From assembly GCF_037975245.1 (NCBI RefSeq), contig NC_092565.1:22339499-22403498 (forward strand): a DNA stretch of 64,000 nucleotides, in the 5' to 3' direction. The notes under the pieces were generated by a model. The model saw nothing but the letters and a program-made list of their open reading frames with translations. It searched no databases and was not told the DNA's origin. Positions 24,198-45,065 of this stretch are shown piece after piece. Position 1 is the first letter of the stretch. The number at the start of each line of letters is the position of its first letter. A program made the position numbers and the translations under genes. This stretch comes from Apostichopus japonicus (taxonomy: Eukaryota; Echinodermata; Holothuroidea; Aspidochirotida; Stichopodidae).

Positions 24198-24548
24198 TGG
24201 AGAGTGCTAGGGATAAGATGGCAAGAATGGGTCAGCACAAAGGAACTGCTAAAGAGAGCAAAAATGGGACTACTAAGCATCAAAATTCAGTAAAGAAGAT
24301 GGAAATTCATTGGGCATATATTGTGCCAAAACCCAAACAATGACAGCAACATCAGCATGACTTGGGCACCAGAGGGCAGGAGAAAGGGAGGGCGACCAAA
24401 AACAACATGGCGCAGGACAGTAGACAAAGAGAGGGAGAGGGCTGGTTGGCGATCCTGGAATGAGGCCAGAAACGCAACTGCCGACCGAGATAAACGGAGA
24501 CGCTCTGTGGAGGCCTTATTTGCCTCTAGGCAAGAAGAAGACAGATGA
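24198..24548 (+). pseudogene. LINE reverse transcriptase C-terminal fragment
   Basis: One frame runs from WRVLGIRWQEWVSTKELLKR through an in-frame TAA at 24291-24293. It continues with RRWKFIGHIL, RRKGGRPKTTWRRTVDKE and RRRSVEALFA to a stop at 24546. The order GH-L, GRPK-TWRRT and RW/RR-VEAL is a widespread signature of the C-terminus of non-LTR retrotransposon ORF2. It is 5'-truncated and has an internal stop, so it is a dead insertion downstream of HELQ. Confidence 0.75.
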
Positions 24549-24988: not shown

Positions 24989-27900
24989 CTAACAAAAATT
25001 CTTTCCTGATTTAGAAGAATATAACATTTCTAAACCACCCAACCTCATTCTTTTCCTCGCTTCCTCTTTAATATGAAGGCATCTCACCTTAGCAGCTGAT
25101 ATTATTTCCGTGGCTATCTTCTTCGGTAAATGTTCTACATCTCTTACCAGGGTTTCAACGTTAGCAAAGGCCAAATGTCGTAGCGTCTTGTACCCTGCTT
25201 TGACAAGTTGCCTTGCACGACCCTGCGGGAGAAATTGGTCATAGGCACACTCTGTATTTCTCTCAAGTTTAAACTGATAAAAGACCCTAAAAAAAACTAA
25301 TAATTTATTTTATGATGCACATCGTTGACAGACAATAAAACTACATCCTTATTAATCCTACATATGTGCCTCTCAGGTGTTTGCAGTCTCATTAAAGGGA
25401 GTGAAGACATGCGCAAAAAGAAACGTCTAATGCCGGTAATCTGATCTAGTTTTGAATGAGGTGTAACAGAAGTGTTAGACACCACCATCGGTCCCAGAAA
25501 ATACACACACACAGCTTGCTACCATCGGCAATTAGACACTAGTGTACAGTCAGTACATACAGCTGCGGTCAATACCCACAGCACAGTGTACCAACAATGC
25601 AGCGATGGACATCTCAGGTCCAGCTAAAGATAACAAGGTATCACGTTTCATTACTGTACTGTCTGCATTTTGTAGCGACACGAACAAAACGTCACTTGCA
25701 AGCAACAGAAAGTTAACTTTTTCATATGGCCCAATGCGGTTTGGGGCGAGTCTTCAATGCCTTTAAATACTGAGCCATCTGAAGTCCAGACGGTAACATT
25801 AACATGTAGGTATGGACTGAGGAGCAAATGTCATCGTCACATTTAGCCTTAAAGGAGCATTCCAGAGATTTATATATTTTAGAGGTGAATATCTTGAGAA
25901 CCGGGACAGCTATAGAAACACTAATTGCACAGCTATTGAACAGCTAATTGCACAGCTAATTGCACAACAATGAGTTACCAGTTTGACTATAAGAGATTTC
26001 AAGACTATAGTGTCTAAAATTATCCTTTCATATACTTAAATGAGTTACCAGTTTGACTATAAGAGATTTCAAGACTATAGTGTCCAAAGTTATCCTTTCA
26101 TACACTTTTTAAAATGAGTTACCAGTTTGACTATAAGAGATTTCAAGACTATAGTGTCTAAAGTTATCCTTTCATACACTTAAATGAGTTACCAGTTTGA
26201 CTATAAGTGATATCAAGACTATAGTGTCTAAAGTTATCCTTTCATACACTTAAATGAGTTACCAGTTTGACTATAAGAGATATCAAGACTAAAGTGTCCA
26301 AAGTTATCCTTTCATACACTTTTTAAAATGAGTTACCAGTTTGACTATAAGAGATTTCAAGACTATAGTGTCTAAAGTTATCCTTTCATATACTTAAATG
26401 ATTTACCAGTTTGACTATAAGAGATATCAAGACTATAGTGTCCAAAGTTATCCTTTCATACACTTTTTAAAATGAGTTACCAGTTTGACTATAAGAGATT
26501 TCAAGACTATAGTGTCTAAAGTTATCCTTTCATACACTTAAATGATTTACCAGTTTGACTATAAGAGATATCAAGACTATAGTGTCTAAAGTTATCCTTT
26601 CATACACTTAAATGATTTACCAGTTTGACTATAAGAGATATCAAGACTATAGTGTCTAAAGTTATCCTTTCATACACTTAAATGATTTACCTGTTTGACT
26701 ATAAGAGATATCAAGACTATAGTGTCTAAAGTTATCCTTTCGTACACTTAAATGAGTTACCAGTTTGACTATAAGAGATATCAAGACTATAGTGTCTAAA
26801 GTTATCCTTTCATACACTTAAATGAGTTACCAGTTTGACTATAAGAGATATCAAGACTAAAGTGTCCAAAGTTATCCTTTCATACACTTTTTAAAATGAG
26901 TTACCAGTTTGACTATAAGAGATTTCAAGACTATAGTGTCTAAAGTTATCCTTTCATACACTTAAATGAGTTACCAGTTTGACTATAAGAGATATCAAGA
27001 CTATAGTTTCTTAAGTAATCCTTTCATACACTTTTTAAAATGAGTTACCAGTTTGACACCTGACACTTCCAGTAGAGGTAGCAAGTCAGCTGTGGCACAA
27101 TATGAAAGGTCATAGGTCACTTTACCAAGAAGTTGGTGGATTGCCCAAAACTGAGGAAGATCCTGTCGGATGTAAGATGCAGGAAGAAGAAAAAAGAATG
27201 AAAAACAGAAAATTGGGTATTATGTAATAAAGGAATTGTTTTACATATTTTATAAAAATGATTAGCATATACTTAGTAGGCCAGCATGATATAATAATAA
27301 AGTTATAGATCAATTTTCATTGTTTTAATTTGTTTTCTTTACTCTGGTCATCCTAATCTTGTGCATGATACCAGGAATGGATGTTAGCTCTAGATTCAAA
27401 TTTTCAAACAAGAAATGTTTCCGATTTAGAAGTGAATATCCATTATTTAACAACACTGTAAGTGATTAACATATATGTTTGTGTGTTCACAGTGACAGTG
27501 CACTACAAAAGTAACCAATATTAAGATAAATTTAATCAAATTATATCAAAGATAGTAAATGTCATCAATAATTATGTGAACTGGTCTGATTGTGATCTTT
27601 TCAAGGCACTTACTCATACATAACTATTAAACTGTCAAATTTATATACACACTGTAAGCTTGACTTCTGCAGTGCTAGATTAAACAACAGGTTGATACCA
27701 AAAATTACCCCTCAAACTAAACGAACATGAAATCATTTCATAACAGGGGTAGGGGTGTTTACTTCACAATACTCCTGGGTCAATAGAAGTTTCTAGCTCT
27801 TTCACAATACCATTTGTTTTTAATAAATACCACACACCGTGGTCTTACCTCACAGAATCTCTGAATACTGGACGCAAAGCTCGCAGCCGAGGTGAAGAGA

Positions 27901-33900: not shown

Positions 33901-36900
33901 TTAGTTGAACAGAAAATGAGGCAAGAGTTGTAAGGTATTACTTCCAAAGCCAAACCCAGCAAATGATCTGGGTCATTTTTCTTCATTGCACTATTATACT
34001 GTAGAAGTCAAACAAGAGAAATGAGAGAGGATATCTTTAAAGCAGAGTTCGAGGCTTTTCCTCTGAATGAAAAGTTACTTCAGACGGTGCTGAATCATGC
34101 AGTTCAATATATATAATACTTTCTGGCTGAGTGCTCAAGTAATGCATTATTTTAATTTTTTTAAGATTGGGCTGGGTAAGTGGTGCAACGGTATCTAGGG
34201 CTAAAGAAGATCATATCAATATTTCGATGTTACAAATAGCATTTCTGTTTAAAGTGAGCAAATAACTGAAAGAGGCTTGGAGCACTGGATCCATTCAATC
34301 CTTCATATACCCACAATTTGTGTAATACTTTTGTAGTCAACTGAATTTGTTTGTCATAAAAATACTAAAAAGCATCTGACTGCAATACCACTGTAGAAAT
34401 TTGATCATCATGCATAGCATTTTTGCAGGGCATTACTTTGGGCTCACATTTTGTATAGCACTTTGAGGTGCATGAAATTTACTTGTCAAAATATATTAAA
34501 AGTAGTTTGATTTTGTGCAAATAAGCTGTGATACATCTTTGCATAATTTGTGAATAAATGACTCCATTTTCTATAACCTTTTTCTAGCCCTATACAATAC
34601 CAGATAAATTAATTCCTATGCTGAAACTATGGGAAATTTGACAGTGACATAACATTTTGAATCGGAAGAAATTTTCAAGTATAGAAAAATAGAGAAGACT
34701 GTGTTTTGAGGGATAAGCACATCAAACAGAGGTTACCAGCTGTACTCACAGGGAAAGCAACATTTCTTGAGTGTGTAAATCGATCGTCCGGACAGAGGGC
34801 GCTTGTGTTAACTTGATAGAGCCCATCTCCTATCTTAATGTGCTCAGTAAGCTCCACCTACATGGGCAAGAGAATAGATGCGTAAACTTGACGGTGCACA
34901 TTGTAAAGAAAACTATAAATGTCAGGGCTTGAAATCCTTGAAAACCATCTGAATGAGGTTCATGGAAAAATTAAAAGTCCTTGTGGGAATTCCCCACAAG
35001 AAATATAAAATTGAAAACAAAGAAATAATAAATAGAAACAGATATATAAAGGCTAAGAGTTAAATATATGCGAGCACACAGTATTCGCCTATATTTTTCA
35101 TTATAATTTATCCTTATGTATCAGGAGTGCTCAGTTGCTTTTCTTCCCAAGTAATATTGGGAAGTTGCCAGAACTATCAATCATGTTCCCAGATTCAGTT
35201 CCTCCAATCCTCCTGTTGGTATTAAGCCTTTCATATACTTTTATCTAATACATACAGTACGTATACAGTCAACTCCAGGTGCTAATACATATGTATGTAT
35301 CTAGGAATAAAAAATGACTGCCTTTTGTAGTACTCACTGGACGGAATTGACTTGTATAAGATTCGGCATCTAGATACTTGGATATGTCTTGGATGTTGCT
35401 TAGTGTGGCACTCATACCAATGATCTGAGATAACCCAAGGTGCAGTAATTTGGATAACATCCCCTCAAGAGAAGCACCTCTTCTACTTCCGTCCCCCAAC
35501 ATATGAAGCTGTGTAAAAGGAAGAAAGTTTGTGTGTCATTTTTTCAAATTTTTTATCTCTGCTTTGCTATTTAAAAGTTACACTGTTGTGAGCAGCAAAA
35601 TTCTTTATTCCAAATGTTTAAAATGCTTGATAAAGTCATTATGTGTCAACCATTGGTACATCTTCCAAAAGGTTGATTGAGAAAGTGTGCGGCGTACCAG
35701 ATGTGGGACATAGAGTGTGAAGTGCTAAAGCACATTTCCACGTTAATTGCATGTTTGATAGATGGTAAAGTGAATAACATACTGGAGACTAGTCAACTGG
35801 AGTGAAGCTTTTAATTCACTCATCTAACACTTGTTTGTTAGTGACACAGTTACTGCACTGTTTCTTAAACTACATGTTGCAAAGGATACCTCCCCAGCTG
35901 ACACCACACCCCCCTCCCCCCCCTTCTTGCTGCCTCCTATAGGGTCCTTAATGGGGACTTGAGTGTCCCTCCTGATTCTTTTTTCTACTTAACTATAAGA
36001 AAGATTGCAATTTTAGCTACTTATATAGCATCCACTCACTTGCTAATACTGTGCCTACTGCCTAACAGACCTACATAAAGTAGATCATGTTTACAGTAAA
36101 CAGTGAGATAACAGAAAGACAAGCAAGAGCATTATCTGGACTGATCTTAAACATAGCAACATAATTCTGACCTCATCCACAACGACAAGTCCGATTGAGT
36201 CAATTCTCTTCTCAGTGATGAGGCTGTTCACAAGGCTGTGGGCTTTTTCTATGGTACAGACAAACAAAGCATTTTTCTTCCTACGCTTTCTTGGTGGTAT
36301 CGAACCTTTAGTACCTGCATATTCTTCCACCAGAAAGCCTAATTCAACCGCTAATACTGACAACGATGACACCTGTCGAAAGTATGTACAAGAAAAAACA
36401 TTTGCAAGTACAGAATACTGCAGAAATACCACAATATGTCAGGTTTACAATTTATTAATGGTGGAATTGCTACCGGATAACTGATGAGGGCATAAGTGGA
36501 GGATCATTGTCCCTTCTCTGCTCTCCCCCGCCCACTTTCCCCATCTTCAATGGGATTACCTCAACAACTCATCCATTAATAAGACTGATATATAATACTT
36601 GTAATTGCTAAGAAAAATGAGCACATTGTTCACAAATCTCAGCAGGGTTAGAAAGGACTGCACGTATGAAGTTTTGAAGCTGTGTACAGTGTAAGTTCTC
36701 TTCTGTTAAGTTATTAGGAGAAAACTTGGTTTGAAACCAACGATTGAAGTTTGTGAATCCTTAGTGGATTCTATGGAGTATATCTGGAATCATAGTTGGC
36801 TTCCATTATCTGTTTTCTAACTTCTATACACATACTTATATTAAACAATCTGTGTTCTATACACATACTTCTATATTAAACAATCTGTGTTCTATACACA

Positions 36901-39900
36901 AAATTATATATTAAACAATCTGTGTTATGTGTTCTATACACATATTTATATTTTAATCAATCTGTGTTCTATACACATATTATATATTAAACAATCTGTG
37001 TTCTGTGTTCTATAAACATACTTACACATTAATCAATCTGTGTTCTGTGTTCTATACACATTCATATATATTAAAAAATCTGTGTTATGTGTTCTATACA
37101 CATACTTATATTAAACAATCTGTGTTCTGTAATCTTTGTTATGTGTTCTATACACATACTTGTATATGAATCAATCTGTGTTCTATACACATACTTATAT
37201 ATTAATCAATCTGTGTTATGTGTTCTATACACATACTTATATAATAATCAAACTGTGTTCTGTGTTCTATACACATATTCATATATTCATCAATCTGTGT
37301 TCTGTGTTCGATTCACATACTTATATATTAATCAATCTGTGTTCTATACACAGACTTATATATTAATCAATCTGTGTTCTATACACATACTTATATATTT
37401 CTCAATCACCTATCATAAAATTGACAAATTTTTCCTTTGGTTTGTTCTTGAAGGAAAATTGTTTGTCAAACTTTCATAAAAATTGGAACCACAGAACAGT
37501 GACAAGTGAGAACCCTATACAGTACATACCTCAGCATGTGATAAAGCACCAGTTGACAATGAAGTTATACATGTATGTTGCTTTTCAACAATCAAAGCAG
37601 GTAATAAGTCATTTACTCTCTGAATTTGTCAAAGTCACATTCAACTTAACAAAACATTTTTTTTTTAATAATTGTAAATTTAAACATTTCTGATTTCTCC
37701 GAGTTAAACAAAACATACTCTATCCGTCTCAAGAGTTGAAAATATCATGTTTAGTGTAAAGCCAGCTGCACACTGTTTGACTGATCATGAACTGACTCAA
37801 CTCAACTGTCGTTACGGGGACAATCTTGGTTAGTCCGGCAGTGTGCATGTCCTCGAGACTATGACCTATCAAGATTTTGCCAGCTTTAAGTCGTGTCGTC
37901 TTCAGTCGGGGAAAACTAAACATGTAGCGATTCCCTGACTGGCAGACGGCAGTGTGTGGTGGTTCACGACTAAAACCGCAGTTTTAACAAATTTAAGCAA
38001 TCGCTTGGTAATTTATTCGAATCTGACCTAAACTAGCTCTGGGTCTTTAATTGCAAACAGATGCTGTGTGCGCTCATCAGTCAATCAGTATGCAGGGTTC
38101 AGTTGTCAGTCTGTGATGGGGTCTTCACAATAATCAGAACTAGGTCCCAACTGTCAAGTTGAGTCGGGCAGTGTGCCGAGGGCTTCGAATTAAAACTTTG
38201 GAACTACGGTAATACCTTTTCCTGGACGATGGAGACGTACGGTAATATCAAGATGGCGTCCTTCTGATGGCAGAGCAGCTGCTGGAATATCAGAATCTCA
38301 GCCACTAAAGTTTTACCACCGCTGGTAGGCAGAGAATATATCAAGTTCTTGCGAGACTTAACCGATGGAAGTGTCAAACATGTATGCTGCCAGTCTGAGG
38401 AAACAACATAACAGTGAGTGGTGCATGACTCGATTAGCAACATTAAAAGAATGAAGTGACCCTAACAAATGGGTCAAATTTATGTATAACATTTAATATG
38501 CCTTGGTATATTAATATAGAACTACCAATTGAAAGGTTCTTGGTTTTTAAATTAGGTGCAAATTTTAATGGTAGTCCGGTAGTCCGAGACGAACAAATTT
38601 CTATTCCGACAACAAAACCAGTTGTGGGGTTGTCAAGGAGAAAACTAGATATTTACATCAAATTCAAATCGCATTGTAACTAAATACCCCCAAGTGAAAC
38701 GATAATTTGTTATCGCCCCCAAAGCTGATATTCTAATCACCAACCAACACATCACTCCTTCAGTGTACAGTAAATCCTACAGTGATATAGTGCTCATTTG
38801 TTACTTTGCTACCTTTCTTGAGAAACCAAATTTTATGTTGGGACAACCAACCTGTAAGGCCTGGTTTGGGGGACAACCAGAAAACATCCTAAAAAATGTG
38901 CAGGGAAATTCATCATTTGGAGAACTATCCAGTACAGTGGCTTTAAGTGCATTAGTTAATCTCAATAAAACCCTCTGAATAATTCTTTCAACATCTCGTA
39001 AAAAGAACAAAACATATTTGGCAATCCAATCCATACAGTTCTATTTCAAAACATGATACTGTACAGTAGCATGGACTTTAATTACTTAAAGTGACTTTCT
39101 AAGACTGTCAAAGATCAGCATAACATGAAAAGACTTCAAAAGAGAATATTATATTATATAATTGTAATACAACAGCATGCACAAATTTGTATGTAGTTCA
39201 GTCATAATATTCTGTAACATAACAGAACAAACTACTGTATGCACAAATTTGTATGTAGTTCAGTCATAATATTCTATAACATAACAGAACAAATTACTGT
39301 ATTGTGGTATGAGCTGTCTGCGTGTCATACAGTCCATAATTGCTGATAAAAATTCATTCCACGATTGACCTCGGTTGAGATTTTCGAATGAAACAAAATT
39401 CTGGTCAATAAGCAGCAAATTACTTTCTTCACATTAGTAGCTCAGATAGAGATTACAAAAGCTTACCATATAATGTTGTAATGCCCCTGTGTAACGTCAG
39501 TAACTCTTGGACTTTGCTTGGAAGGCCATAAAATGGTCCAATATCTTTGTCGCCTTTGTCATCGGTATCTAAATTAATCATCTCTTTCAAGGCGTCATCG
39601 ACTCTCACTCTGCGATTAACGCTGGAGGAACGCTGACCTATGGGAGTGGATTCTCTAGCATTCTTGTGCAGCTTTCGCTTGAGCCTACTTCCTAAAGATA
39701 AATTGAAGTCATTGGAAGTTTCTGACTTCTGAGATTCCACCTGATTTATAGAATTGGCTCCACTGTCTTCATTTGGTATTAAATTTCTTCGTTTGCAGAT
39801 AGGAGATTTGTTTGTAATATTGTCATCAATTTCCTCATCAGGTTGATTTTGCTCGTTCTGTGATGCTTCCTGTGTGTGAGTGGTCAAAGCATCAATGCTT

Positions 39901-44082: not shown

Positions 44083-45065
44083 TTAAGTCGTGCTAGGGCA
44101 GAACGTTACTAGTGGGGTTCCACAAGGGTCTGTATTAGGTCCCTTGTTGTTTGTTGCCTATATAAATGACATCGACGGAGATATTTTGTGTAAAGCTAAG
44201 AAGTTTGCTGATGACACCAAATTGTATTCTGAGGTCTCTTCCAAAAGCGATTCTGAAAAAATTTCAAGCGGATTTGGATAAGATTTTTTCCTGGTCTCAG
44301 GGGTGGCAAATGCTTTTTAATATTGTTAAATGTAAGGTAATGCACATTGGTAGTAGTAACCAAAAGTTTACATACAATCTTAATGGTGTGGAGTTACAGG
44401 AAGTCTCTGTTGAAAGAGACCTAGGTATCTACATTGACTCATCTCTGCAACCTTCTGTCTTGAAGCTGCTAAAAGAGGTAATAGGGTTTTAGGTATGATC
44501 AAGAGGAACTTCAGTTTTCTGAAAGAGGACATCGTAGTTAGGCTTTATAAGCAGTTGGTTAGGCCTCATCTGGAGTATGCTGTGCAGGCCTGGAACCCTT
44601 ACTTTGCTAAGGATAAGGCAGTATATACTGAAAAGGTCCAGAGGAGGGCTACTAGTGATTAGTTCCCTAAAGAGGGTTCCTTATTATAGGAGGTTACAAC
44701 TGTTAAATCTCACCACACTGGAGCTTAGGAGGTTACGTGGGGACTTGATCCAGGTTTTCAAGATTGTGTATGGTTTTGACAATTTATCCTTTACCGACTT
44801 TTTCTTGTTTGCTAACAGTAGTACTAGAGGTCATAATATTCGGCATAACTTTTTTCTAATAGGGTTGTGAATGAGTGGAATGGTTTGCCTGAGAAAGTTG
44901 TACTTGCAAGTAGTGTCAATGGGTTTAAGAATGCTTTGGACAAGCACTTTAAGCGTTGTAATCGGGTCTGAGTGTTTGTGTACGGTTTTTTTCCCTCTCT
45001 CTAGGGTCCTTGATGGGGACTTAAGTGTCCCTCCTGATCCTTTTTTCTACTAAACTAAACTATAA
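44083..45065 (+). pseudogene. Decayed non-LTR retrotransposon (RT core to 3' end)
   Basis: The reading starts at [16 protein letters not shown] and [11 protein letters not shown], the reverse transcriptase palm with the catalytic FADD. In shifted frames it continues with WQMLFNIVKCKVMHIG, LVRPHLEYAVQAWNP, LRRLRGDLIQVFKIVYGF and VNEWNGLPEKVV, then a stop near 44970. At least two frameshifts and an in-frame stop (about 44660) make it inactive. The order matches CR1/Jockey-type LINEs. The 3' end (45002-45064) is shared with 35931-35999. The N-terminal RT and endonuclease are missing, replaced by the U2-like segment. Confidence 0.85.

Follow-up and report, generated by a model that had tools for sequence, protein, structure and literature searches.

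The closest described systems are "mirages", a class first reported from lancelets: minisatellites that lie across exon/intron boundaries in the lancelet Adh, TnC, globin and PGBD5 genes (PMC3087553; PMC3902484). Their units are 10-160 bp long, carry AG/GT signals in many copies and are unstable in length; splice sites are duplicated, and the mRNA is spliced regularly, without aberrant products (PMC3087553; PMC3902484). In human IFI6 (6-16, G1P3), a minisatellite gives several splice donors, and two of its downstream units are reported to be used, yielding three mRNA species (PMC4526556, citing Turri et al. 1995). Besides this human case, mirages are reported only from lancelets in the literature we searched, which contained no report of an echinoderm mirage (this is not proof of absence) and nothing on competing 5′ splice sites. 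The array that we describe here in the HELQ gene of Apostichopus japonicus is a further mirage, in an echinoderm, of the class already known from lancelets.

The window is the whole 64,000-nt stretch of DNA that was analysed; positions refer to it unless a contig is named. The following features lie on its minus strand (a slash within a donor marks the exon/intron boundary):

27049..27162, minus: HELQ exon 15, 114 nt, phase 0, open frame; acceptor 27162, donor GT at 27048
27041..27048, minus: authentic exon 15 donor, CTG/GTAACTCA
25223..27048, minus: HELQ intron 15, 1826 nt
25969..27057, minus: mirage minisatellite of 15 complete 70/74-bp units and one incomplete unit, the first beginning 9 nt inside exon 15
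27001..27003, minus: in-frame TAG in the first unit; the ORF ends at 27001 when the exon 15 frame is read on
25971..26981, minus: 15 intronic decoy donors, 11 GTAACTCA and 4 GTAAATCA
26683..26690, minus: strongest decoy (GT at 26690), CAG/GTAAATCA, that is CAG/GTAAAT; its use would give a 472-nt exon 15
25088..25222, minus: HELQ exon 16, acceptor 25222; helix-hairpin-helix-like end with ...IISAAK; donor GTGAGATG at 25087

When spliced, exons 14-16 encode a protein that matches Pfam POLQ_helical (8.5e-14) and HHH_5 (7.2e-6; 26.8 bits, just below the Pfam cut-off of 27), and their PDB matches are DNA polymerase theta structures. Exons further upstream match DEAD (3.4e-20) and Helicase_C (4.4e-12), so that an SF2 helicase core, a POLQ/HELQ-type helical domain and a terminal helix-hairpin-helix are all present. 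We take the gene to be HELQ and not POLQ, given that its N-terminal and helicase exons resemble human HELQ. The sequence-only reading had treated exon 16 as the end of HELQ; its helix-hairpin-helix-like character stands, and it may yet be followed by further exons, given the strong donor at its end (25087). The reading frame is intact on either side of the array. Another HELQ intron holds a second minisatellite (35/42-bp units, 36822-37407) that falls short of the adjacent exons. Frames resembling non-LTR retrotransposon reverse transcriptase, judged by eye (...FADDTKLY), lie at 24294-24548 (+) and 44087-44870 (+).

Tandem Repeats Finder (TRF) reports the array at 25969-27057 with a period of 70 (alternatives 144 and 214), 15.3 copies, 93% matches and a score of 1823. 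Read on the minus strand, each unit is GTCAAACTG/GTAA(C/A)TCATTT...TCTCTTATA. Donor-like sites number 16, starting with the authentic exon 15 donor and continuing with 15 intronic copies whose GT lies at 26974, 26904, 26830, 26760, 26690, 26620, 26550, 26480, 26406, 26336, 26262, 26192, 26122, 26048 and 25978. The intronic units have in common a 17-bp core of nine exon bases plus donor, and the first unit is contiguous with exon 15. The recurrence of the exon's last nine bases and donor through the intron, in 15 copies with 70/74-bp units, had been noticed from the letters beforehand and is confirmed; splitting the array returned exactly the claimed 11 GTAACTCA and four GTAAATCA copies. The earlier limits need correcting: the exonic first copy begins at 27057, with the end of exon 15 at 27049. 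At its far end, the 70-bp array is directly adjoined by a short repeat of 12 bp (GTGCAATTAGCT on the minus strand, 25906-25966).

The lancelet mirages (Adh3, TnC, globins BflGb6/BflGb9 and PGBD5) and the HELQ array share boundary-spanning units with splice signals and edge units that are excluded from homogenisation; the HELQ array differs in its echinoderm host, its gene and its length (15 intronic copies). As one haplotype seen at the DNA level, it fits the anatomical definition of a mirage at every point examined, covering the boundary with 70/74-bp units at 93% matches and having a homogenised core without the edge unit. It also resembles the IFI6 minisatellite, which lies at an exon/intron boundary with multiple splice donors (PMC4526556). 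There, repeat copies are reported to be used and the frame appears to stay open, judging from the isoforms, whereas in HELQ the TAG in the first unit closes the frame and any use of a copy would lead to a stop.

Intron gain under the Rogers model (potato RdRp, ATP2A1) likewise involves a within-gene tandem duplication that copies splice signals; at HELQ, by contrast, an existing intron has been lengthened, with no sign of a new one. A related idea is that each unit (GT...TATAG, TCAAACTG, GT) acts as a candidate mini-intron plus 8-nt exon, so that the intron would be removed stepwise by recursive splicing or an intron would be born. All complete units begin with GTAA and end with TTATAG ahead of the next copy, and introns have been proposed to arise through tandem duplication of a boundary (PMC3087553). 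However, the pyrimidine tract is weak and short, an 8-nt exon would be hard to define and shifts the frame, and no observation requires this reading, which we consider extremely improbable.

We scored donors in bits from a standard metazoan matrix, not fitted to the species, and by U1 duplex energy. On this splice-site model all 15 decoys reach or exceed the authentic donor at 6.4 bits: they score 6.4-6.6, except for the copy at 26690 at 8.8. The claim that CAG/GTAAAT is the stronger donor is borne out by both measures, the U1 pairing being -8.3 kcal/mol for this copy and -5.0 for the authentic site, which has the weakest U1 pairing among the 12 HELQ donors scored. At a threshold of 6.35 bits, 16 sites fall within the array, where the remainder of this strand predicts approximately 1.9. 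With the threshold raised to 7 bits, one site is left and 1.5 are predicted, so the array is enriched in weak donors only. The donor 9-mer alone is unable to discriminate the authentic site from the decoys.

Predicted local RNA openness was 0.02 at the authentic donor and 0.02-0.17 at the decoys, most of which are more open. We therefore dropped RNA accessibility as a cause of donor choice, since the decoys are as open as the authentic site or more so. As the authentic donor is weak and less open than most decoys, its preferential use is not explained by the donor itself.

A DNA search of the whole 671.6-Mb genome found the array at a single locus, ruling out an origin from a dispersed repeat or transposon. 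The exon-side unit 0 differs from the remaining 74-bp units at 4-5 positions, and those differ among themselves at 0-2. Unit 2 is identical to unit 10 and unit 1 to unit 12, and each intronic 74-bp unit is preceded by a 70-bp unit with the GAAATC variant. The identical units and the fixed order of 70 then 74 bp show copying in blocks of two to three units, and the set-apart unit 0 together with the periods of 144 and 214 is what unequal exchange typically leaves when the edge is isolated. An assembly artefact in copy number was considered, as assemblies easily collapse or expand tandem arrays and one of the published amphioxus mirages had been assembled wrongly in the draft genome (PMC3087553). 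We give this almost no credence for the HELQ array, given its irregular unit differences, its unique flanks and the similar arrays found genome-wide.

Variable columns are as frequent in the donor core from -3 to +8 (2/11) as in the rest of the unit (11/63; Fisher P = 1.0), and the result is similar for intronic units only (2/11 versus 8/63; P = 0.64). Because the donor columns vary as much as the others, the comparison gives no sign of selection for or against the decoys, although it has little power on homogenised arrays.

To ask how common such arrays are, we scanned this genome with patterns in which a consensus donor occurs three times at intervals, and read the flank wherever the array start was within reach. 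Among 24 other donor-bearing arrays with a readable start, 12 have a plausible coding exon end at that start; the flank of the remaining 12 showed no convincing coding end. The candidate mirage loci are L034, L036, L041-L043, L051, L077, L079, L080, L082, L083 and L085. Homology confirmed the host exon at 5 of the 12:

C1:1921500-1924500 (L034): YJU2, exon end ...ATNPMK/GTGAGT; Pfam 2.8e-12, PDB YJU2 2e-12
Amino-acid transporter array: homology 8.4e-8
GT21 glycosyltransferase array: homology 1.3e-10
SPTLC1-like array: PDB 1.1e-5
KRI1 array: homology 4.8e-28

The other seven (L042, L051, L077, L080, L082, L083 and L085) are supported by an open frame alone, with an acceptor-like AG visible in most. 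Identities of VPS39 for L080 (unsupported by PDB or Pfam) and TTC17 for L077 (unsupported by Pfam) were rejected. At the 12 loci, the units include between 4 and about 39 bases of the exon. Most of the decoys are as strong as the authentic donor or stronger, many reaching 11-12.6 bits, and the frame read past the exon end invariably runs into a stop, no more than about 200 nt on. Since the patterns detect consensus donors only and the HELQ GTAACT escapes them, the true total of arrays is larger. Donor-bearing arrays at exon edges thus appear to be common in the A. japonicus genome, with strong and weak donors alike.

YJU2 is itself a splicing factor gene; its mirage has 39/41-bp units and 29 decoy-like copies, many equal to the gene's own strong donor, AAG/GTGAGTAA. 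At L082 (C17:904500-905480), a glycine-rich exon with its donor (GTAAATATC) has imperfect copies upstream, possibly an exon-scale duplication. We also considered whether donor motifs seed arrays. The donor pattern and its reversed control gave similar numbers of matches (986 versus 726, 63 versus 51 and 65 versus 54), the spaced-pattern matches are overlapping ones from a few arrays, and AAGGTAAGT taken singly occurs less often than its reverse (8447 versus 16338); the idea was dropped on these grounds.

These arrays bear on whether the HELQ copies do anything. One possibility is a regulated poison extension, in which decoy use would retain the TAG and lead to NMD or to HELQ without its C-terminal helix-hairpin-helix, with copy number tuning the output. 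The stop lies in the first unit, as in the sequence-only reading, and occupies 27003-27001, so any use of a copy would end translation before the exon 16 helix-hairpin-helix end. The weakness of the authentic donor next to 15 equal or better decoys, one of them clearly better, is also in favor, as is the reported use of IFI6 copies (PMC4526556, citing Turri et al. 1995). Nevertheless, the donor bases are conserved no more than other bases of the unit, unrelated genes in the same genome carry similar arrays, and lancelet mirages yield no aberrant mRNA (PMC3087553; PMC3902484), leaving a poison extension quite unlikely. Distinctly improbable, too, is a splicing rheostat in which the decoys, including CAG/GTAAAT, divert some HELQ transcripts to the stop-containing exon and array length, differing between individuals, sets dosage. 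The suggestion that this array is special or regulatory found no support: mirages are a named phenomenon with at least five confirmed and up to 12 candidate cases in this genome, many of the other arrays have far stronger decoys, and the donor bases in HELQ vary as much as other positions of the repeat.

The copies could instead serve as extra landing sites for U1, aiding the weak authentic donor or suppressing premature intronic polyadenylation. This would suit the donor with the weakest U1 pairing of the 12 in HELQ, next to 16 sites in 1.1 kb, and the U1 snRNA genes of the same genome have the canonical 5′ end ATACTTACCTG. Yet very strong donors, which need no such help, also have mirages, and the motif is without conservation; we regard the proposal as very improbable. 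The U1 snRNA genes themselves include a tandem of at least 42 copies with a repeat of approximately 856 bp at C20:29019462-29087219 (loci L002-L013), beginning with ATACTTACCTG wherever the start was read.

The HELQ mirage is, very probably, a near-neutral passenger whose 5′-most donor is used and whose copies are tolerated. On this reading, a short tandem duplication that by chance spanned the exon 15/intron 15 boundary gave rise to the minisatellite, which then grew by one to three units per step through unequal exchange or slippage. Every copy has an exon end and a donor because the break lies 9 nt inside exon 15. The copy spliced would be the 5′-most one, since it belongs to a real exon whose definition starts from that exon's own acceptor; the decoys, all 15 of them, would leave with intron 15. 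We infer that the authentic donor is the used one through exon definition and first transcription: it would be favored by being transcribed first and by being paired with the acceptor and exonic signals of the real exon. The flanking exons keep an open, conserved frame, so most transcripts presumably must use the 5′-most donor. The first two decoys would give exon 15 lengths of 188 and 258 nt, both compatible with exon definition, and a low-level leak to a stop-containing, NMD-prone product is plausible.

We suggest that the frequency of such arrays in an echinoderm genome deserves more attention than HELQ alone. Many equal donors at one locus amount to a natural experiment on how the spliceosome chooses a 5′ splice site, and a uniform 5′-most rule, if true, would be visible at once in RNA-seq.

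Other observations were made in the same genome. COX1 is best matched at the beginning of contig C35, and this match contains 11 in-frame TGA codons. Animal COX1 has the sequence T-N-H-K-D-I at a place where C35 reads ACT AAA CAC AAG GAC ATT, so AAA encodes Asn. Since AGA also occupies positions of Ser and TGA encodes Trp, the code is the echinoderm mitochondrial one. Several COX1 fragments also lie on a small separate contig (C29:14745-31219), perhaps mitochondrial-like or duplicated mitochondrial sequence beside C35. Bindin is known from sea urchins and starfish, and a bindin gene is present in this genome as well (PF02084, 5.2e-29).
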